Shown piece after piece: positions 40,745 through 55,470 of a DNA stretch of 58,021 bases. Positions within the stretch are counted from its first letter, which is position 1. The number at the start of each line of letters is the position of its first letter. The notes under the pieces are model-generated. The model was not told where the DNA came from. It ran no database searches and saw only the letters and a program-made list of their open reading frames with translations. The position numbers and the translations under genes are program-made. This DNA is from Labilibacter marinus (lineage in GTDB: Bacteria; Bacteroidota; Bacteroidia; Bacteroidales; Marinilabiliaceae): positions 1 through 58,021 of the forward strand of contig NZ_LXYE02000037.1 of NCBI RefSeq assembly GCF_001659685.2, in the 5' to 3' direction.

Positions 40745-42358
40745 ATGGTACATAGAAAGAGTTTTTTTACAGTATTACTTTTATGGGTAATTACTGCTAT
40801 AGCTTGTAAACAAAGTCTAAACACAAAAGATCAAAGACCTAATATCCTTTTTATTATGTCAGATGATCATGCTTACCAAGCCATTAGCGCCTATAGTAAT
40901 CACTTAATTGAAACACCAAATATCGATCGAATTGCCCATGAAGGGATGCTGTTTACCAATGCTTGCGTAACAAACTCCATTTGTGCACCTTCTCGAGCTA
41001 CCATTTTAACAGGAAAGCATACCCATATCAATGGTAAAATAAACAATATCCAACCCTTTGATACAACACAAGTCACCTTTCCTCAATTATTTCAGCAAGC
41101 AGGTTACGAAACGGCCATGTATGGTAAATTGCATTTTGGCAATAATCCTAAAGGAGTGGATGATTTTATGATTCTGCCTGACCAGGGAAATTATATTAAT
41201 CCTAATTTTAATACCCCCAAAGGCGATACCACAATTGTAGGATATGTAAGCGATATAATTACGGATTTAACTTTAAATTGGCTAAATAAAAAGCGCAATA
41301 AAACCAAGCCATTTATGATGATGTATATGCATAAAGCACCACATCGTCCATGGTGGCCCAGCCCTCATAAGTTTAAAGAATTCGCCGCTAAAAACTTTCC
41401 TGAACCGGTTAGTTTATTCGATGATTATACCAACAGAGGAACCGCCGCAAAAACAGCTGAAATGAACCTATTAACCCACATGAAATATGGTCATGATTCT
41501 AAAATAAGACCTGAAACGATAAATGAAATGGGTGAAATTACACCTTACGTTCCACCTGTTGAATGGGGAGAAGGTTTTTATGGTCCATATAATAGAGCAA
41601 ATGCCCAGCAAAAATCCTTGTATGATCCAGTCATTGATTCTATCAATACATGGTTTAAGAATAATTGGATGAAACTGAGTATGGAAGATAAAATGCGTTG
41701 GAAGTATCAGCGTTATATGCAGGATTATTTGGCTTGCATTTCCTCTGTAGATGATAATGTTGGTAGAGTGTTAGATTATTTGAAAGAAAGCGGATTAGAT
41801 AAAAATACTATCGTTGTATATACCTCAGATCAGGGCTTTTATTTAGGGGAGCATGGTTGGTTCGACAAGCGTTTTATATACGATGAATCATTTAAAACTC
41901 CATTGCTTATTCGCTGGCCTAAGCAGATAAAACCAGGAACAAGTTGTGATGAAATGGTTCAGAATCTAGATTTTGCTCAAACCTTTTTAGAAGCCGCTCA
42001 AATATCTGCACCAAGCGATATGCAAGGCGAGAGCCTGATGCCTTTATTAAAAGGAGAAGATGAAAAGTGGACAAGAGATGCGGTGTATTATCATTATTAC
42101 GAATACCCTTCGGTACATATGGTAAAAAGGCATTATGGTATAGTAACAAAAGAGTATAAGCTTGTTCATTTTTACTACGATGTGAACGAATGGGAATTAT
42201 ACAACAGAAAAAAAGATCCACAGGAAATGAATAATGTTTACGAAGATTCAAACTATCAGGAAACTGTAAAGGAATTAAAAGCTAAACTGGAAGACCTTAG
42301 AGTTAAGTATAAAGACTCAGAAAAATTAGATCAACACTTTATAGAAATTACAAAATAA
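40745..42358 (+). CDS. Family S1 sulfatase, lipoprotein
   Basis: A 537-residue carbohydrate sulfatase with a lipoprotein signal (TAIAC-KQS). Metal site FIMSDDHAYQ, formylglycine precursor C80 in CAPSR followed by ATILTGKH, MYGKLHFG, and the later metal site TSDQGFYLGEHGW. The C-terminus (WELYNRKKDPQEMNN) is typical of the S1 fold. The HAPHRPWWP-like segment (KAPHRPWWPSP) resembles iduronate-2-sulfatase or N-sulfoglucosamine-sulfohydrolase-like members, which in algal bacteria act on many sugars. The next sulfatase starts 15 bp after its stop, so the two are one operon. Confidence 0.92.
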   Translation: MVHRKSFFTVLLLWVITAIACKQSLNTKDQRPNILFIMSDDHAYQAISAYSNHLIETPNIDRIAHEGMLFTNACVTNSICAPSRATILTGKHTHINGKINNIQPFDTTQVTFPQLFQQAGYETAMYGKLHFGNNPKGVDDFMILPDQGNYINPNFNTPKGDTTIVGYVSDIITDLTLNWLNKKRNKTKPFMMMYMHKAPHRPWWPSPHKFKEFAAKNFPEPVSLFDDYTNRGTAAKTAEMNLLTHMKYGHDSKIRPETINEMGEITPYVPPVEWGEGFYGPYNRANAQQKSLYDPVIDSINTWFKNNWMKLSMEDKMRWKYQRYMQDYLACISSVDDNVGRVLDYLKESGLDKNTIVVYTSDQGFYLGEHGWFDKRFIYDESFKTPLLIRWPKQIKPGTSCDEMVQNLDFAQTFLEAAQISAPSDMQGESLMPLLKGEDEKWTRDAVYYHYYEYPSVHMVKRHYGIVTKEYKLVHFYYDVNEWELYNRKKDPQEMNNVYEDSNYQETVKELKAKLEDLRVKYKDSEKLDQHFIEITK

Positions 42359-42373
42359 AGGCTTAAAATAATC

Positions 42374-43999
42374 ATGAGAATGAAATTTCAAAAACTCTTT
42401 TCAACCACGGTCATAGCTTTACTCATCATCAGTTGCTCAGGAAAAAGCACAAAGAGCAATAAAGAGTCTGATACAGCAAAGCGACCTAATATCATCTTTT
42501 TTATTGCAGATGATATGTATCCCGAAATGTTTAATTGCTTGCCAGAAGGTAAAGGAAAAAACTTAACCCCCAATATGGATCGGTTAGTTGCAGAAGGAAC
42601 CCTAATGAAAAACCAATTGGTTGCATCGCCGGTCTGTACACCTAGTCGTTATAATTGCTTAACAGGTAATTACGCCAGCAAAGCCACCAATAAAGCTTTT
42701 ACATCATTTACCAAAGAACAGGAAGGGCAAACGGTTATCCATTGGAATACTTTTATTACAAACGGAAATAAAGCCTTGCCGCATTATCTTAAAGAGCTTG
42801 GTTATACCACAGGTATGGTGGGTAAAAATCATGCTATTGAAGCGGGAACCTTATATCATTTTCCTGATTATTGGGCAGATGCTAAAGCGCCTGAGATTGT
42901 TGAGAAACTGGAGTCGAATTATAATCTTACTGTTCAGGCTATATTAGATAACGGTTTTGATTATGCGGATGGTATTTACCATGATAACCCTAATTTTGTT
43001 GGTTTAGGCGAGCTTGCGGTGCAAAATACAGATTGGATAGCAGAAGCTGGCGTTAATTTTATTGAGAAAAATTATAAGCGTCCCTTTTACCTGTATTTTG
43101 CTACTACTATACCACATGCTCCAACAGAACCTAAACGATCTTGGAATGCCAATCCTTTAATAACGGCTAAAGGTTATCTGGAAAAAGCGCCCAATGTAAT
43201 GCCTGTACGTCATACTATTCCTGAGAGAACAAAAGCAGAAGGATTAGAAGGGAAGGGTAAAGAAAACCTACTTTGGTTAGATGATGCTCTTGGTGCTTTA
43301 ATCCATAAGTTAGAAGACCGTAATATTTTGGATAATACCATTATTTTCTTTTTTAACGATCACGGACAAAAAGCAAAAGGCACCTTATATCAGGGTGGAG
43401 TAATGAGTCCGAGTATTGTATGGCAAAGTAAAGGTTTTAAATGCGGGAATATTTGTAATACTAAAGTACAAAACATTGATTTTGCCCCAACTATTGTTGA
43501 GATGGCCGGAGGTAATGTTGAGGAAAATCAATTTGATGGACAAAGTTTTAAGGCTCTTTTAGATGGTGAGACTTTAGATGCTGAACGTACTTTCTTTTTT
43601 GAACTCGGTTATGCACGCGCCATTATTAAAGGAGATTATAAATATTATGCCATACGTTATCCAGCTTTTGCTAAAAACAGAACTAAGGAAGAACGCGCTA
43701 CAGTGTTGGAAGGATACAATTCACCACGTATTAAAAAGAAAATGGGTACAGTAAACCTAGATAATCCAATGGCTCCTTACAGTCATTTTTCTTTAGTTCC
43801 AGGAGGAGAGCAAGCAGAGCATGCATCGTATGGTCAATTGCCGGGATATTTTGACATGGATCAACTGTATAATCTAAAAGAAGATCCCAAAGAGCAAAAT
43901 AATCTATTTAATGACCCATCGAGTCAGCAAGTTTTAAACGAATTAAAGGCCGAATTAAAGAAACACCTAGCAAGTATGCCCGGTAAGTTTGATATATAG
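42374..43999 (+). CDS. Family S1 sulfatase, lipoprotein
   Basis: A 541-residue sulfatase with lipobox IISC-SGK. Metal site FIADDMYPEM, formylglycine precursor C88 in CTPSR followed by YNCLTGNY, GMVGKNH, and FFFNDHGQKAKGTLYQGG late in the core. It differs clearly from the upstream sulfatase and is probably a different S1 subfamily acting on another sulfate position of the same glycan. It is followed by a terminator. Confidence 0.9.
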   Translation: MRMKFQKLFSTTVIALLIISCSGKSTKSNKESDTAKRPNIIFFIADDMYPEMFNCLPEGKGKNLTPNMDRLVAEGTLMKNQLVASPVCTPSRYNCLTGNYASKATNKAFTSFTKEQEGQTVIHWNTFITNGNKALPHYLKELGYTTGMVGKNHAIEAGTLYHFPDYWADAKAPEIVEKLESNYNLTVQAILDNGFDYADGIYHDNPNFVGLGELAVQNTDWIAEAGVNFIEKNYKRPFYLYFATTIPHAPTEPKRSWNANPLITAKGYLEKAPNVMPVRHTIPERTKAEGLEGKGKENLLWLDDALGALIHKLEDRNILDNTIIFFFNDHGQKAKGTLYQGGVMSPSIVWQSKGFKCGNICNTKVQNIDFAPTIVEMAGGNVEENQFDGQSFKALLDGETLDAERTFFFELGYARAIIKGDYKYYAIRYPAFAKNRTKEERATVLEGYNSPRIKKKMGTVNLDNPMAPYSHFSLVPGGEQAEHASYGQLPGYFDMDQLYNLKEDPKEQNNLFNDPSSQQVLNELKAELKKHLASMPGKFDI

Positions 44000-45184: not shown

Positions 45185-45245
45185 TTTTTTACTAAAAGCT
45201 CATTGTTTCTTACCTGACTTAAGGTACAGCTGTGTTATACTTTTG
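45185..45245 (+). promoter_or_regulatory. Shared AraC-type promoter, copy A (NTF2-like gene)
   Basis: Half-site 1 TTTTTTACTAAAAG starts at 45185; half-site 2 TTTCTTACCTGA starts at 45206. The TAC cores (45190, 45211) are 21 bp apart. TACTTTTG, an exact TAnnTTTG box, is at 45238-45245, 27 bp after the second core. Initiation near 45250 gives a short leader to ATG 45271. Confidence 0.7.
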
Positions 45246-45270
45246 CATTATAAACTTTAAACAATCATTT

Positions 45271-45609
45271 ATGATGAAAAGTGCACAAGAGGTTTTTGAG
45301 AACCACATTAAAGCTGTAAGTACTTTAGATCCAGAGAAAGTAATTAATGATTATGCTTTGGATGCTGTTTTTACAACACCAGAACGTACCTATAAAGGAG
45401 CAGAACAAATTAAAAGCTTTTACCAAGAGCTTCTTCCTAAAATGGATGGGTTTGAGATTAAAACCATCAAGCAAGAAACCTACAATCATGTGGTATATCT
45501 GGTATGGCATGGTAAAAATGAAAAACTGGATGTACAGTTTTGTACAGATACTTATATCATAGAAAATGGTAAAATTAAGTATCACACTTTCGCAGGAATT
45601 ATTCAATAA
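45271..45609 (+). CDS. NTF2-like / SnoaL-type small protein
   Basis: A 112-residue soluble protein of the cone-shaped NTF2-like fold: an N-terminal helix pair (SAQEVFENHIKAVSTLDPEKV), then YALDAVFTTPERTYKGAEQIKSF, and a beta-sheet ending WHGKNEKLDVQFCTDTYII in overlapping strands. Such proteins are small-molecule isomerases, dehydratases or binding proteins. I use ATG 45271 because the ORF from 45232 would begin before the -7 box at 45238. The hydratase-family gene follows after 20 bp, so both are co-transcribed. Substrate unknown. Confidence 0.75.
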   Translation: MMKSAQEVFENHIKAVSTLDPEKVINDYALDAVFTTPERTYKGAEQIKSFYQELLPKMDGFEIKTIKQETYNHVVYLVWHGKNEKLDVQFCTDTYIIENGKIKYHTFAGIIQ

Positions 45610-45629
45610 ACACTATAAATTTTAATACT

Positions 45630-46475
45630 ATGGATTACAAAAATTTTCAAACATTTACAGCAGAGCAGAAAGATGCCATTTTAACGGTTACAATTAATTT
45701 CGGACCTGTAAATGTACAAGGACAAGAGATGTTAGCAGACCTAAGCAGTCTTGCTTTAAGATTAGAACGTGACAGAAGCGTTAAGGTTGTTGTATTTCAA
45801 TCATCTAACCCTAATTATTGGGTGTGCCACTACGATACAAACCTATTGAGAGATATGTCTACAGAAGCTGTTTCTAGATCAGAGGTAAAGTTACTCGATT
45901 TACAATCGGTATTAGAAAGAATTAGCAACCTACCTCAAGCTACAATTGCAAAAATTGAAGGTTTTGCACGAGGTGGTGGTCATGAAATGGCTTTGGCTTT
46001 AGATATGCGTTTTGCAGCTCGTGGAAAAGCTAAATTCATGCAAATGGAAGTAGGTATGGGAATACTACCATGTGGTGGAGGTGCTTCTCGTATGGCTCGT
46101 CAGGTTGGTTTAGGAAAAGCACTTGAAATTATTTTAGGTGCAAGAGATTGGGATGCTGACGAAGCTGAAAAATTTGGAACGGTAAACAAAGCGCTTGACG
46201 CAGATGAAATAGGACCGTATGTAGATGCTTTAGCAGAGCGTATTTCTAAATTCCCTGCAGAATCGATTGAGGCTTGTAAGCGCGCAGTTTATGCATCTAT
46301 TGATTTACCCATTGCGGATGCTTTAAAAGAAGAAGCTTATCAGTTATTTCAGGCTACTAGCAAAACGCCTGCCATCAAACGTTTTACAATTGCCGATGAA
46401 AATGGTGCACAATTCGACCATGGTAATCAAAAGAATTGGGAAAACATGCTAATGGACTTGCAAGAAATTAAATAA
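45630..46475 (+). CDS. Enoyl-CoA hydratase/isomerase-family protein
   Basis: A 281-residue crotonase-fold protein. Both catalytic glutamates of the hydratases are present: one in ARGGGHEMALALD and one in MEVGMGILPCGGGASR; the oxyanion-hole Gly-rich loop is intact. The N-terminus (FGPVNVQGQEML) and the segment SSNPNYWVCHYD replace the usual substrate pocket, so the CoA substrate may be unusual or the protein may not act in beta-oxidation. No fatty-acid oxidation partner is next to it. It shares the promoter of the NTF2-like gene. Confidence 0.85.
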   Translation: MDYKNFQTFTAEQKDAILTVTINFGPVNVQGQEMLADLSSLALRLERDRSVKVVVFQSSNPNYWVCHYDTNLLRDMSTEAVSRSEVKLLDLQSVLERISNLPQATIAKIEGFARGGGHEMALALDMRFAARGKAKFMQMEVGMGILPCGGGASRMARQVGLGKALEIILGARDWDADEAEKFGTVNKALDADEIGPYVDALAERISKFPAESIEACKRAVYASIDLPIADALKEEAYQLFQATSKTPAIKRFTIADENGAQFDHGNQKNWENMLMDLQEIK

Positions 46476-46491
46476 AGATTGAGTATTGTTA

Positions 46492-46533
46492 GAGGGGGTG
46501 ATGAAAGTTTACCATTAATCCCCTCAACTTTTA
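46492..46533 (+). terminator. Weak terminator after hydratase-family gene
   Basis: GAGGGG (46492-46497) pairs with CCCCTC (46520-46525), with AACTTTTATT after it. The stem is only 6 bp, so partial read-through into the flavin oxidoreductase gene is possible. Confidence 0.4.
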
Positions 46534-46556
46534 TTCTCTCCATAAGTTTATAACAC

Positions 46557-47504
46557 ATGAAGTTTGAAGAAATTAATAAAGGTTACAACAGTGTATTTAA
46601 ACCTCATAAATTAAGCCTGGGGCTTGTTATTCCTATTGAGAATTATGCACATGGTGCCACCCCTACAATGCAACAGCATTTAGAAAGAGTGAAATTAGCT
46701 GAAGCTGTAGGTTTTAAAGCAGCATGGGTAAGAGACGTTCCTTTTAATGTTCCTTCGTTTGGTGATGTGGGGCAGATGTATGACCCATTTGTTTATCTTG
46801 GGTATCTTGCTGCACAAACAACTAATATTGCATTGGGAACTGCTAGTATTGCTCTACCGTTACATCATCCTGTTCATGTAGCTAAGTCCGCAGCTACCAT
46901 TGATCAATTGTCTAATGGTAGATTAATTTTAGGTGTAGCATCAGGTGATAGGATGGAGGAGTATCCGGCAATGAATATCAAATATGAAGAAAGAGGAGAG
47001 CGATTTCGTGAAGCATTTAATTTAATTAGGAACGCACAAAAGGACTTTCCAAAACTTGAAACAAGGCATTACGGAAATTTAAACGCTTCTTTGGATATCC
47101 TACCTAAACCTTTAGGCAAAAAGATTCCCTTACTAGTCACTGGACATAGCCAACAATCCTTGGAATGGAATGCTGAAAATTCAGACGGATGGATGTCATA
47201 CCCAAAGGATGCATACAGCCAACGGCAAACAATAAAAGATTGGAGAGATTTAATTTCTGGTGGGAGTAAAGCCAGTAAGCCATTCATGCAACCTCTCTAT
47301 GTTGACTTGCAATCCGATTCAGGTTTTAAACCTGAACCAATACATTTAGGTTTTAAAATTGGGTCTAAATATTTGGTAGATTATTTATTCCAATTACAAG
47401 AAATTGGAGTTAATCATCTGGCTTTTAATCTTCGTTTTAATAAAACTGATATAAGCCATACTCTAGATAAATTAGGAGATGAAGTGTTGTCTAAATTCCA
47501 CTAA
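46557..47504 (+). CDS. Luciferase-like (LLM class) flavin-dependent oxidoreductase
   Basis: A 315-residue TIM-barrel oxidoreductase that probably uses FMN(H2), perhaps a monooxygenase. Typical segments are LAEAVGFKAAWVRDVPF, QTTNIALGTASIALPLHHPVHVAKS in overlapping blocks, DQLSNGRLILGVASGD and a C-terminal HLAFNLRF. The pattern fits the BA3436-type LLM subgroup, as far as I can judge from memory of the family. It has no copy of the shared 21-bp repeat upstream, so it is probably expressed by read-through from the hydratase gene (82-bp gap) or from its own promoter. Substrate unknown. Confidence 0.85.
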   Translation: MKFEEINKGYNSVFKPHKLSLGLVIPIENYAHGATPTMQQHLERVKLAEAVGFKAAWVRDVPFNVPSFGDVGQMYDPFVYLGYLAAQTTNIALGTASIALPLHHPVHVAKSAATIDQLSNGRLILGVASGDRMEEYPAMNIKYEERGERFREAFNLIRNAQKDFPKLETRHYGNLNASLDILPKPLGKKIPLLVTGHSQQSLEWNAENSDGWMSYPKDAYSQRQTIKDWRDLISGGSKASKPFMQPLYVDLQSDSGFKPEPIHLGFKIGSKYLVDYLFQLQEIGVNHLAFNLRFNKTDISHTLDKLGDEVLSKFH

Positions 47505-47558
47505 GACAAAAGCTTATGTCCTAATATCTTTCCATAATCTTCGTCATATACTTACTTG

Positions 47559-47628
47559 TTAAACCTTGTTTTTTACAACAAAAACCATTTTTCTTACTTG
47601 AGCACAGTTATAGATACCGATACATTTG
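47559..47628 (+). promoter_or_regulatory. Shared AraC-type promoter, copy C (quinone-reductase-like gene)
   Basis: TTAAACCTTGTTTTTTAC (47559-47576) matches 17 of 18 positions of the copy before the radical SAM gene. The TAC cores at 47574 and 47595 are 21 bp apart; the second lies in TTCTTACTTGA. TACATTTG (47621-47628) is an exact TAnnTTTG box, 26 bp after the second core. The ATG is at 47675. Confidence 0.7.
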
Positions 47629-47674
47629 TAATGTAAATATGCAAGGATAACTTATAACTTAAAAAAATAATATA

Positions 47675-48661
47675 ATGAAAGCATTAGTAATTAATGAATA
47701 TGGCGAGAATGCTAAATTTGAAGTAGCAGAAATTGAGAAGCCAACTATTAAAAACGGTCATGTTTTAGTGAAGATTGCAGCCTCTAGTGTAAACACCATT
47801 GACACTATGATTGTACAAATGGGTAAAAATCTACCATTATCTCCTGATGCTCCAGCACTTTTAGGAATGGATTTCGCAGGTGTCGTTGAAGAAGTAGCAG
47901 ATGATGTAAAAGGTTATGCGATTGGTGATGAAGTTTACGGATGCGCTGGTGGATTAGGTGAATTACCTGGTACATTAACTGAATTTATTGTAGCAGACAG
48001 CAGATTGATGGCGCATAAGCCTAAAAACATAAGCATGAGAGAAGCAGCTGCTTTACCATTGGTTGCCATTACTGCCTATGAAGGTTTAACTCGCGCAGGT
48101 ATAACAGAGGGACAAAAAGTATTGGTACAAGGAGGCTCTGGTGGTGTTGGTCATGTAGCTATTCAGCTGGCAAAATATTTCGGAACAGATGTGTATGCTA
48201 CTGATGGTAGTGAAAATAAATTAGCATTAATTAAAAAGTTAGGAGCAACCGCTATTGACTACAAGTCAGAAAAAGTAGAAGATTATGTAGCGAAATACAC
48301 TGGAGGTGCAGGTTTTGATGTGGTTATGGATTCTGTTGGTAATGAAAACCTAGTGAACTCATTTAATGCAACAGCATTGAATGGAAATGTTGCTACTACA
48401 GTTGCCTTAAGTCCAGTAGATTTAACCATGGCACATTTTAGAGGTCTGTCTGTACATGTAGTATTTATGTTAATACCAATGTTATACGATTTTAATAGAG
48501 CTGTGCATGGTGAGATTCTTAGTAAAGTAGCAGAAATTATTGAAGCAGGAAAATTAACACCTGTGGTTGACGAGAAGAAGTTTTCTCTTGAGCAAGTGGG
48601 AGAGGCTCATGCCCATTTAAAAAGTGGACAAGCTATTGGAAAAGTGGTAGTTGAAAACTAA
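47675..48661 (+). CDS. Quinone-reductase-like NADP-dependent dehydrogenase (MDR family)
   Basis: A 328-residue medium-chain dehydrogenase/reductase. GroES-like N-terminal domain (about 1-115) with GMDFAGVVEEVADDV, then a Rossmann domain with QGGSGGVGHVAIQLAK binding NADP(H), and C-terminal GQAIGKVVVEN. The catalytic-zinc Cys/His set of alcohol dehydrogenases is absent, so it is of the zinc-independent quinone/enone reductase type, reducing activated C=C bonds or quinones. Its promoter carries the shared 21-bp repeat, tying it to the NTF2-like and radical SAM genes. Confidence 0.9.
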   Translation: MKALVINEYGENAKFEVAEIEKPTIKNGHVLVKIAASSVNTIDTMIVQMGKNLPLSPDAPALLGMDFAGVVEEVADDVKGYAIGDEVYGCAGGLGELPGTLTEFIVADSRLMAHKPKNISMREAAALPLVAITAYEGLTRAGITEGQKVLVQGGSGGVGHVAIQLAKYFGTDVYATDGSENKLALIKKLGATAIDYKSEKVEDYVAKYTGGAGFDVVMDSVGNENLVNSFNATALNGNVATTVALSPVDLTMAHFRGLSVHVVFMLIPMLYDFNRAVHGEILSKVAEIIEAGKLTPVVDEKKFSLEQVGEAHAHLKSGQAIGKVVVEN

Positions 48662-48817
48662 TCCACTTACGAAAGGTTCAAACAAGAAAGACAAAAAAGG
48701 TATTTTAAGCGATAGCTTTTATTTATTGGCGTCGCCAAAAGGTTTAATACCTCGTTAATACAGTTAGTATTCAGATTTATGCTTATGGGCTTGCCACGAG
48801 GTGGTTTATTTTATATG

Positions 48818-48848
48818 GGAGTATCTCTTTAAAGGGTACTCCTTTTTT
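48818..48848 (+). terminator. Terminator of the quinone-reductase-like gene
   Basis: GGAGTA (48818-48823) pairs with TACTCC (48837-48842), extended inward by three pairs including G-U, followed by TTTTTT (48843-48848). Confidence 0.75.
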
Positions 48849-48880
48849 GTGCAATAAAAGAAGACTAGTATAGGACTACA

Positions 48881-48951
48881 TTAAACCTCGTTTTTTACTA
48901 AAAGTACTTTGCTTTATACCTGATCAAAGCCAAGCTACAAGCGTATTTTTG
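48881..48951 (+). promoter_or_regulatory. Shared AraC-type promoter, copy B (radical SAM gene)
   Basis: TTAAACCTCGTTTTTTAC (48881-48898) then TAAAAG. TAC cores at 48896 and 48917 are 21 bp apart; the second lies in TTTATACCTGA. TATTTTTG (48944-48951) is an exact TAnnTTTG box, 27 bp after the second core, as in copy A. The ATG is at 48983. Confidence 0.7.
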
Positions 48952-48982: not shown

Positions 48983-49855
48983 ATGCATTACGAAGGAAAA
49001 ATATACCGCCCTTGGATGGAGGCAAATAGTTTGCTGATTCAAACAACTATAGGTTGTTCTAATAATTCGTGTACTTTTTGCGATATGTTTAGCGATAAAA
49101 AATTTGGTGTTCGCAAATTAGAAGATATATATGATGATATTGAAGAGGCTAAGCAACTTTATGGTGCTAACATCGAAGAGTTTTTTTTGATTGATGGAAA
49201 TGTGATGGTGATGAAAACAGATTTCATTGTAAACGTTCTACGCAAAATCAAAGAAGTATTTCCGAATAGCAAAAAGATCTCGTTGTATAGTCAATACAAT
49301 GATTTTAAAAGAAAAACAGTAGACGAGCTAAAACAGATTAAACAAGCCGGTTTAACGATGGCATATGTGGGTCTCGAATCTGGAGATGCTAAAATTCTTG
49401 ATGATGTTAAAAAAATGATGACTCCAGAAGAAGCAATAGAAGGAGCGGCCAAAGCCAAGGAAGCTGGAATTAGAGTTTTAGTTTCTATTATCTGGGGTCT
49501 TGGAGGCAAGGAACGCTCCAAAGAGCACGCTATTGAAACGACTAAACTGTTGAATATTCTTCAGCCAGAAGAGTTAGCTCCAATGGCTCTGGCTATACAA
49601 CCAGGTACCGAGTTGGAAGCTCAGGTAGAAAGAGGTGAGTTCACATTACCTACAAAACAACAGGTATTGGAAGAAGAAAAATACTTATTAGAAAACCTAA
49701 AATTTGACACTTTCTATTGGGGAGATCATGGTAATAATGAGGTTTCTTTAAAAGGTCAGTTTCCAAGCAATAAAGTCAGTTTTTTAAATGTTGTAAATGG
49801 AGCCTTAGAAAATATTAAAAACAAAGATGAAAAAATTGAGACTTTTTCTTGGTAA
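48983..49855 (+). CDS. Radical SAM protein
   Basis: A 290-residue radical SAM enzyme. Its [4Fe-4S]-binding cysteines are in GCSNNSCTFCDM (CX4CX2C), the form found in a large group of HemN/Elp3-like radical SAM proteins. The core continues with FFLIDGNVMVM, LASGD-type GLESGDAKILD and GIRVLVSIIWGLGG. The C-terminus lacks an SPASM domain or auxiliary cluster cysteines, so it is not a typical sulfatase maturase. Its promoter has the same 21-bp repeat as the upstream genes, so it is probably part of the same regulon. Substrate unknown. Confidence 0.88.
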   Translation: MHYEGKIYRPWMEANSLLIQTTIGCSNNSCTFCDMFSDKKFGVRKLEDIYDDIEEAKQLYGANIEEFFLIDGNVMVMKTDFIVNVLRKIKEVFPNSKKISLYSQYNDFKRKTVDELKQIKQAGLTMAYVGLESGDAKILDDVKKMMTPEEAIEGAAKAKEAGIRVLVSIIWGLGGKERSKEHAIETTKLLNILQPEELAPMALAIQPGTELEAQVERGEFTLPTKQQVLEEEKYLLENLKFDTFYWGDHGNNEVSLKGQFPSNKVSFLNVVNGALENIKNKDEKIETFSW

Positions 49856-53922: not shown

Positions 53923-55470
53923 ATGCAATATTTAAAAAGATACGGGTTACTTCTACTTTCTACTATCATGATATTTTCATGCACAAATATAAAGAAGGGG
54001 GAAGCCAAACAGGAAGAAAAACCTAATGTTATTATTATTTTTCCAGACCAATATCGTCAGTTCAGTTTAGGTTTTTGGTCTCAAGGAGATAATGCCAAAT
54101 ATATTCATGGTAAACCAGATCCGGTTAATACACCAGCGTTGGATAAATTAGCCAACGATGGTGTTGTATTTAGTAGAGCCATGAGTAATTTTCCGCTTTG
54201 TAGTCCATATAGAGGTATGTTACTTTCGGGGCAGTATCCAACAAAAAATGGATTAACAGCTAATTGTCGTAAAGATAGAGAAGTAGGTATCAAGGTAGAT
54301 GGTAAAGCAATAGCTAATGTTTTTACCCAAGGTGGCTATGAAACAGCTTATTTTGGAAAATGTCATTGGCAAAAGACCGTTCCTATGTTTGATGAAAAAG
54401 GAACTTATCACGGTACAACAGAAGCTCCTGGAGGTCATTACATCAACAGATATGATACCTACGTGCCTCCTGGTGGACCACGCTTGGGTTATAAATATTT
54501 CTTTCAAACCTTGCGGGATACACACAAAGATCCGCTTTGTTACTCTAACGACCCTAAAGCCATTGAAGGTTTTAAAGAAGGTGAATTATATCAACCCAAA
54601 CGGTTTAGTGCCGAGTTTGAGTCAGAGGCGCTATTGAATTATCTAGATAACACACATGGGCAGCGCGATATGGATAAACCATTTTTTGTTACCTGGTCAT
54701 TAAACCCACCGCATAATCCATGGGATGAAGAAAGTACTGATATGAAGTTCTTTCCTCAATATACCAATCAAGGAAATATAGAGATTGACGATTTACTTTT
54801 AAGAGGTAATGCTGATAAGGAAGTGGGGGAATACGCTCCTTATTATTTCGCCAATGTAAGTGCGGTAGATTACTACATAGGACTTGTTTTGGATAAACTA
54901 GAAAAAATGGGAGTAGCCGATAATACCATTATCGTTTTTAGTTCTGACCATGGTGAAATGTTAGGGAGCCACGGACATAAAGGTAAACCTTACCCTGAAT
55001 CGGAAGCTTTTAATATACCTTTTATTTTAAAGTGGGGTAAAGAATTAAACCATAGAGTAGAGGATTTAATATTAAGTGTTCCGGATGTAATGCCTACACT
55101 ATTAGCTTTAGTAGGATTGGAGGATATTATTCCAGCAACAGTACAAGGGACTAATTTTGCAAGTATTATTAAAGATCCTGAAAGTAATATTACCCAAAGA
55201 CCCAATGCAGTTTTATATTTCGATTATAATCAACGAGGATTATATTTAGGAGATTATACTTTTGTAGTTAAAACCTCTAACGGCGTTGATTTTAAAGAAG
55301 CCTTTTATTACGATAATGTAAAAGATCCATATCAGCTGCATAAAATTAAAGGAGACCAAATGAATTTGGAACTGGTTGAAGAGTGGAAGAAAATTTTGGT
55401 AAAACAATTAATCGCCATTGAAGATAAATGGGCGATACAGAAAATATGCGAAGGATATCTTGAGTATTAA
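53923..55470 (+). CDS. Family S1 sulfatase, lipoprotein
   Basis: A 515-residue carbohydrate sulfatase, lipobox MIFSC-TN. Metal site IIFPDQYRQF, formylglycine precursor C93 in CSPYR followed by GMLLSGQYP, YFGKCHWQ, and the later VFSSDHGEMLGSHGHKGK. The first metal site is FPDQ rather than the common xxDD, a known variant in some S1 subfamilies. It is divergent from the GH2/GH16 operon and shares its control region, so it likely removes sulfate from the same galactan. The terminator at 55488 follows. Confidence 0.92.
   Translation: MQYLKRYGLLLLSTIMIFSCTNIKKGEAKQEEKPNVIIIFPDQYRQFSLGFWSQGDNAKYIHGKPDPVNTPALDKLANDGVVFSRAMSNFPLCSPYRGMLLSGQYPTKNGLTANCRKDREVGIKVDGKAIANVFTQGGYETAYFGKCHWQKTVPMFDEKGTYHGTTEAPGGHYINRYDTYVPPGGPRLGYKYFFQTLRDTHKDPLCYSNDPKAIEGFKEGELYQPKRFSAEFESEALLNYLDNTHGQRDMDKPFFVTWSLNPPHNPWDEESTDMKFFPQYTNQGNIEIDDLLLRGNADKEVGEYAPYYFANVSAVDYYIGLVLDKLEKMGVADNTIIVFSSDHGEMLGSHGHKGKPYPESEAFNIPFILKWGKELNHRVEDLILSVPDVMPTLLALVGLEDIIPATVQGTNFASIIKDPESNITQRPNAVLYFDYNQRGLYLGDYTFVVKTSNGVDFKEAFYYDNVKDPYQLHKIKGDQMNLELVEEWKKILVKQLIAIEDKWAIQKICEGYLEY

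Follow-up and report, generated by a model that had tools for sequence, protein, structure and literature searches.

A predicted AraC-family regulon with 21-bp tandem operators in Labilibacter marinus and other Bacteroidota

Regulators of the AraC/XylS family bind half-sites of about 17 bp, in many cases arranged as a direct repeat of about 21 bp. At the araBAD promoter of Escherichia coli, the araI1-I2 operator consists of two half-sites of about 17 bp, arranged as direct repeats 21 bp apart, the proximal one reaching the −35 region, and the scheme followed is class II activation, in which the proximal half-site borders on or overlaps the −35/−33 element of the promoter. Direct repeats that reach the −35 region are the usual layout of activators. 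Direct repeats with a periodicity of 21 bp are stated for the AraC-family rhamnose regulators of Bacteroides, Bacillales and Enterococcus, whose regulons were predicted (PMC3870299). Here we describe a locus of Labilibacter marinus (NCBI RefSeq assembly GCF_001659685.2, contig NZ_LXYE02000037.1, positions 1 to 58,021; "the window" below means this whole stretch of 58,021 nucleotides), in which an AraC-family gene is followed by three promoters carrying tandem sites of this kind, named A, B and C. Judged from sequence conservation, these sites belong to a conserved AraC-family regulon. As the 21-bp direct-repeat architecture is already known and general, it is the regulon that constitutes the new part, composed of crotonase, SnoaL, quinone-reductase-like, luciferase-like, 2-oxoglutarate (2OG)-oxygenase-like, short-chain dehydrogenase/reductase (SDR) and radical SAM genes that are variously combined, and a search of the open-access literature found no description of it.

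The first-pass annotation of the window had proposed one layout for the three promoters, and recomputation bears it out. The TAC cores of the two half-sites lie 21 bp apart at all three (45190/45211, 47574/47595 and 48896/48917), a TAnnTTTG box starts 27, 26 and 27 bp past the second core (at 45238, 47621 and 48944), and sites B and C have an 18-bp block in common with one mismatch (TTAAACCTYGTTTTTTAC). The conserved unit exceeds that earlier description: repeat analysis gives a half-site of about 17 bp with the pattern C-N5-TT-N2-TAC-N-AAA, whose self-agreement among shifts of 14 to 27 peaks at 21 (0.70, the next being 0.56 at 18), and the same shift stays on top when T/T matches are left out (0.52, the next being 0.36 at 18). 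Site A heads a unit of SnoaL, crotonase and TIGR03571 luciferase-like genes, site B the quinone-oxidoreductase-like gene and site C the radical SAM gene.

Searching with the AraC protein yielded 24 relative loci, 10 in named records (three of Tenacibaculum, two each of Aquimarina, Kordia and Reichenbachiella, and one in a Saprospiraceae metagenome-assembled genome, MAG) and 14 in 13 of the 199 genomes of a family designated f60. A site stands directly downstream of the AraC gene in 23 of these 24 loci, with TAC cores 21 bp apart in 23 of 23 and the −7 box exactly 27 bp past the second core in 22, the exception being L023 of Reichenbachiella versicolor, which has TATAATTG. Counting the three of the window, the TAnnTTTG element, which is of the sigma-ABfr type of Bacteroidota, is present in 25 of 26 promoters. 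Because this box was absent from the consensus, the position weight matrix (PWM) and the model used, it serves as an independent test, as do the new sites described below.

The neighbourhoods of the relative loci hold a recurring gene set in changing combinations, with arrangements such as AraC-site-SnoaL-crotonase, AraC-site-crotonase-quinone reductase and AraC-site-2OG-oxygenase-SDR. At L023, a second AraC copy in Reichenbachiella versicolor, the order is AraC-site-quinone reductase-radical SAM, the two enzymes being 75% and 69% identical to those of the window, and a luciferase-like gene is also present at L065. From this comparison, the window joins sets that are separate in Reichenbachiella, with one site per unit. 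The same layout thus recurs in related genomes before the same enzyme set, as had been anticipated for a true regulon, which supports the regulon reading. The label 2OG-oxygenase is based on weak matches to viral and human lysyl hydroxylases (best E 3.9e-6), which suggest an oxygenase dependent on 2-oxoglutarate and iron, together with a sub-threshold Pfam match. One such member (L029:2492-3454) has about 320 aa and no Pfam family above the cut-off. A search of the window's own genome for this protein gave no match, and the window regulon seems to be without it.

A sequence-only model, R1, was built from a gapless alignment (A1) of the 23 relatives' sites over 40 columns, without the window sites. 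Scanned over the window's own genome (6,026,579 bases; 150 of 12,721 first-look candidates scored, 64 matches at E ≤ 10), it places A first (E=3.4e-9) and C second (E=5.1e-7) among the candidates scored, and B joint third (E=0.029), level with a match inside a coding region; within the window alone, B reaches E=2.8e-4. A PWM of the same 23 sites, likewise without any window site, scores A at 48.6, C at 40.0 and B at 29.2, while the next best place in the window reaches 15.2 and the top of 100 simulated windows (first-order Markov) 13.6, and when the second half is displaced by up to 6 bp in either direction, its score turns negative at all three window sites. The earlier claim that such a geometry is hard to obtain by chance therefore stands for A and C, each significant genome-wide on its own, and for B stands only in local context; the expectation that the motif is not spread at similar density through the genome agrees with the ranking by the relatives-only model.

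The operator also retrieved regulon genes at places that had not entered the model. Among the 199 genomes of family f60, R1 gives 26 matches at E ≤ 0.001 in 18 genomes, 13 of these matches being training sites. Seven of the 13 others precede regulon genes, namely 2OG-oxygenase in five genomes (G588, G501, G474, G464 and G341) and SDR in two (G650 and G512). Their cores are 21 bp apart in all seven, and the box lies at 27 in five and at 28 in one, with TAACTTTA at 27 in G341, where the site before the oxygenase gene is on a contig other than that of the AraC gene. In eight genomes of the named loci (that of L016 left out), 16 matches were obtained at E ≤ 0.01, 9 of them training sites. Three of the other seven are strong, including that of a second AraC-site-SnoaL-crotonase cluster in Aquimarina amphilecti (L102); the start of a 2OG-oxygenase gene is seen next in that cluster, at the edge of the locus. 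Strong sites also precede 2OG-oxygenase genes in Tenacibaculum agarivorans (box at 27) and Reichenbachiella versicolor (TATCTTTA at 27), in both cases outside the contig that carries the AraC cluster; these are draft contigs, so that the difference of contig gives no distance. A weaker match (L112), which lacks TAnnTTTG, lies behind an AraC relative of 49% identity, and neither a regulon protein nor a TAnnTTTG in the same orientation after the TAC pair accompanies the weak matches L085-L089, L097, L098, L110, L111 and L114. Over the fetched neighbourhoods, the model gives 39 matches at E ≤ 0.5, comprising 23 training sites, 6 of the new sites already described and 10 others; three weaker matches with the 21/27 geometry stand before DUF1330 (L071), nitroreductase (L066) and 2OG-oxygenase (L063) genes, the last being a degenerate site (L063:10814).

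The enzymes and the regulator occur together as well. In family f60, crotonase (E ≤ 1e-90) is found in 11 of 199 genomes, all 11 among the 13 with the regulator, and 2OG-oxygenase in 14, of which 12 have the regulator, with a hypergeometric probability of 2e-16 for each enzyme when genomes are taken as independent.

How the sites may work can be read from their position relative to the promoter. In Flavobacterium johnsoniae, transcription starts 4-5 nt past the −7 box TAnnTTTG, and in Flavobacterium the −33 element is often weak (PMC6847099); the same box is given in a further paper (PMC9723704). Between the end of the proximal half-site and the −7 box there are 20 bp at A and C and 19 bp at B. 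With starts 4-5 nt past the box, the proximal half-site would occupy about −49 to −33 and the distal half-site about −70 to −54, and it is by this start position, assumed from Flavobacterium, that the proximal half-site would reach the −33 region. No −33 TTTG element was found in any of the 26 promoters of the window and its relatives, and TTG occurs in that region in one, promoter B; we infer that this absence reflects dependence on an activator. One AraC-family protein would control the three units through the near-identical tandem operators A, B and C, binding as a dimer with one double helix-turn-helix (HTH) domain on each 17-bp half-site of the direct repeat. Half-sites 21 bp apart are two helical turns apart and would present the same face of the DNA, the regulator would contact RNA polymerase at the −33 region in a class II activation, and a small molecule on the cupin domain would probably trigger it. 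We consider it probable (roughly 0.87) that the AraC protein controls and activates the three units in this manner.

Several observations weigh against this reading. Finding the relatives' sites relied on a consensus taken from the window and on a PWM that included the window sites, so their likeness is partly selected, and the presence of a site in the 13 regulator-bearing genomes of family f60 holds by construction, these being training sites. Site B is weak genome-wide and has a box spacing of 26 bp, and L025 shows no site after its AraC gene. The six remaining non-training matches in family f60 (E 6.8e-5 to 9.1e-4) are not beside regulon genes; five are in genomes where the regulator gave no match at E ≤ 1e-60, one is in G650, and around them none of eight regulon proteins was found within 3 kb and no TAnnTTTG in the same orientation after the TAC pair. 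Two genomes hold the oxygenase gene without the regulator at that threshold, G635 with a 21/27 site and G553 without a site. In the window's own family (71 genomes, 52 of them with a completeness of 90% or more and a contamination of 5% or less), R1 matches in two, the window's own (A and C) and G045 of the same genus, the latter (E 3.4e-4) without box or regulon protein. As the −33 element is so often weak in Flavobacterium, its absence from these promoters carries modest weight.

The same regulon could instead be repressed by the AraC protein, or switched by it between repression and activation with an inducer relieving the repression, as a protein on the proximal half-site at the −33 region could block polymerase and the sign of regulation is not readable from sequence. 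We hold this to be unlikely, because with −33 TTTG missing in 26 of 26 promoters there would be little basal promoter to repress. Direct repeats running into the −35 region are moreover the usual layout of an activator. A comparable arrangement is that of SphR (PMC3900636).

Activation by the neighbouring AraC protein also has to be weighed against the far less probable case that another regulator, for example a paralogous AraC protein of the same genome, reads the sites. The genome holds 14 matches to the AraC protein at E ≤ 0.001, itself counted, and a 33% paralogue on contig C50 (L002) as well as three relatives in its family (L011-L013) have divergent promoters in which TAC is repeated at 21 bp and a box follows at 26-27 (four of four looked at), so geometry alone cannot identify the reader. 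The letters, in contrast, differ (TACAA/TACAT and no T-run), the own-genome paralogue promoter is absent from the R1 list, and a full site adjoins the orthologue in 23 of 24 loci. The divergent promoter of the paralogue on C50 (L002, about 2431-2510) has its box at 26 and lies before an ABM-family monooxygenase gene. The window sites have a feature of their own in the proximal TACYTGA, present in three of three and in none of the 23 relatives' sites, as one would expect of sites read by a single diverged regulator. The window AraC protein has a residue absent from all 24 relatives at six positions on which 18 or more of them agree, and two of the six (Asn216 and Asn240) are in the DNA-binding domain. 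Site and protein may have co-evolved.

Slightly less credible again is the view that a single promoter was recently copied to give the three sites, copies B and C having no functional meaning. It would explain the nearly identical block of B and C and the identity of A and C at 43 of 68 positions, yet beyond the half-sites the majority of positions up to the box differ, and in the relatives, sites before different genes hold the geometry and differ in sequence. That chance or AT-richness made similar T-rich promoters is practically negligible, and refuted for sites A and C: the distal half is T-rich and the window 64% A+T, but the scores of 29-49 face at most 13.6 in 100 simulated windows, and spacing and letters are kept across genera.

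Table 1. Features of the predicted regulon in the window (coordinates on the 58,021-nt stretch).
Feature	Coordinates	Strand	Remarks
AraC-family regulator, 283 aa	44240..45091	+	Pfam HTH_18 8.2e-15, HTH_AraC 5e-8, AraC_binding 2e-4
Site A, distal half-site CCTCATTTTTTACTAAA	45180..45196	+	whole site R1 39.5 bits, genome E 3.4e-9
Site A, proximal half-site CATTGTTTCTTACCTGA	45201..45217	+	
−7 box TACTTTTG, promoter A	45238..45245	+	27 bp past second TAC; consensus TAnnTTTG
SnoaL/NTF2-like protein	45271..45609	+	SnoaL_2 3.2e-7 (scan used 45232 start)
Crotonase / enoyl-CoA hydratase family protein	45630..46475	+	ECH_1 4.9e-31; closest solved chains 3h0u, 3gkb
Luciferase-like oxidoreductase, TIGR03571 family	46557..47504	+	399.1 bits vs cut-off 303.9
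Site B, distal half-site CCTTGTTTTTTACAACA	47564..47580	+	weakest site; whole site R1 17.4 bits, genome E 0.029
Site B, proximal half-site CCATTTTTCTTACTTGA	47585..47601	+	
−7 box TACATTTG, promoter B	47621..47628	+	26 bp past second TAC
Quinone-oxidoreductase-like medium-chain reductase	47675..48661	+	ADH_zinc_N_2 1.5e-23
Site C, distal half-site CCTCGTTTTTTACTAAA	48886..48902	+	whole site R1 32.6 bits, genome E 5.1e-7
Site C, proximal half-site CTTTGCTTTATACCTGA	48907..48923	+	
−7 box TATTTTTG, promoter C	48944..48951	+	27 bp past second TAC
Radical SAM protein	48983..49855	+	Radical_SAM 3.1e-19

For the SnoaL gene, the ATG given in Table 1 is preferred because the start of the listed open reading frame (ORF), at 45232, precedes the −7 box. 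The top NCBIfam model for the quinone-reductase-like protein is quinone_pig3, with 203 bits, under the cut-off of 296.8. The usual cysteine pattern of radical SAM proteins is CX3CX2C; that of the window protein (48983-49100) is CX4CX2C (GCSNNSCTFC), which is kept in Reichenbachiella (L023:10043, GCSHNECSFC). The regulon is flanked by ORFs at 40745-43999 and 53923-55470 that appear sulfatase-like from a motif of the C-x-P-S-R type recognised by eye, and their presence on both sides suggests a polysaccharide-degradation neighbourhood.

The AraC protein has the two domains typical of the AraC/XylS family, a C-terminal double HTH (HTH_18 and HTH_AraC, with a fold match to 3lsg at TMt 0.94) and an N-terminal cupin-type domain (AraC_binding at 21.5 bits, cut-off 21.1), which in this family serves ligand binding and dimerisation. 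In the predicted structure (mean predicted local distance difference test, pLDDT, 78.7; predicted template modelling score, pTM, 0.53), the N-terminal strands span residues 9-82 and the C-terminal helices 177-281. Its fold matches are AraC-family proteins, at template modelling scores (TM) of 0.3-0.45 over the full length and up to TMt 0.94 for single domains, those of the N-terminal domain being the regulatory domains of AraC, RhaR and BgaR. Cys23 is the only invariant cysteine among the 25 AraC proteins, position 137 being cysteine in 11 of them. Together with the reductase-rich targets, this cysteine suggests an electrophile or an oxidant as the signal; crotonase and 2OG-oxygenase would fit a catabolic or biosynthetic pathway equally well. 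One may speculate, and we offer it as a doubtful idea, that this is a stress or detoxification regulon across genera of Bacteroidota, in which AraC senses an electrophile or oxidant through Cys23 and switches on mobile redox and coenzyme A (CoA) enzymes, the operator being kept, next to the regulator as well as on other contigs, while the enzymes are shuffled; the enzymes concerned would be the quinone-reductase-like, luciferase-like, SDR, 2OG-oxygenase-like and radical SAM proteins and crotonase, and perhaps the nitroreductase.

The regulator is distributed unevenly. In the window's own family, AraC matches at E ≤ 1e-40 occur in 4 of 71 genomes and are, besides the gene itself, paralogues of 33-37% identity; such paralogues are all that was found in the other 70 genomes, with no match at orthologue level. 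A class-wide draw of 395 genomes gave two matches at E ≤ 1e-60, one of them the window's own genome. The closer relatives of the regulator sit in families other than that of the window, and this distribution points either to acquisition by transfer or to repeated loss. The AraC gene of G549 (L032) has a TAA within the aligned region and extends 275 aa to its first stop, where the other relatives have 279-290. Among the 20 loci with a crotonase gene, identity to the window protein is 88-95% at 18 and 84% and 63% at the remaining two, whereas for the adjoining AraC it is 45-68%. Comparison of six relatives with the window gave an amino-acid identity for crotonase of 0.91-0.95 and a third-codon-position identity of 0.46-0.63. 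Recent transfer as the cause of the high crotonase identity is disfavoured by these third positions, and because they agree at only 46-63%, the conservation looks like strong purifying selection.

What the sites offer is a 40-bp operator of fixed geometry relative to a TAnnTTTG promoter, kept in Tenacibaculum, Aquimarina, Kordia, Reichenbachiella, a Saprospiraceae MAG and the window's own genome, which predicts regulon members elsewhere in a genome. Should binding be confirmed, it would offer a design for inducible promoters in the phylum and tie uncharacterised enzymes into one pathway or response.

Among the systems to which the locus can be compared, RclR of E. coli is an AraC-family protein with a critical N-terminal Cys21 that uses Cys21 and Cys89 (PMC7464077). 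The likeness to it lies in the N-terminal cysteine, here the invariant Cys23; the difference from RclR lies in the second cysteine, of which there is no invariant counterpart here, and in the targets (homologues of rclABC were not searched for). An RclR-like two-cysteine redox mechanism was considered and is unsupported, as a second invariant cysteine is missing. SphR of Pseudomonas aeruginosa is likewise of the AraC family, with two direct-repeat half-sites and a core regulon of three promoters checked by motif search, and differs in its half-site (TGNCCSNNRNNSNCC), in responding to sphingosine and in its targets (PMC3900636). The rhamnose regulators of the family have, like the system described here, 21-bp direct-repeat operators predicted from comparative-genomic evidence; their motifs are each described as unique and their targets belong to rhamnose catabolism, none of which is among the site-headed units here (PMC3870299). 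AraC of E. coli has two domains like the window protein, and its regulatory domain is among the fold matches (1xja, 2aac, 2arc), although identity over that domain is 12-15%, no looping site was seen here (no search aimed at one was made), and the promoters are of different types, sigma70 at araBAD and TAnnTTTG here.

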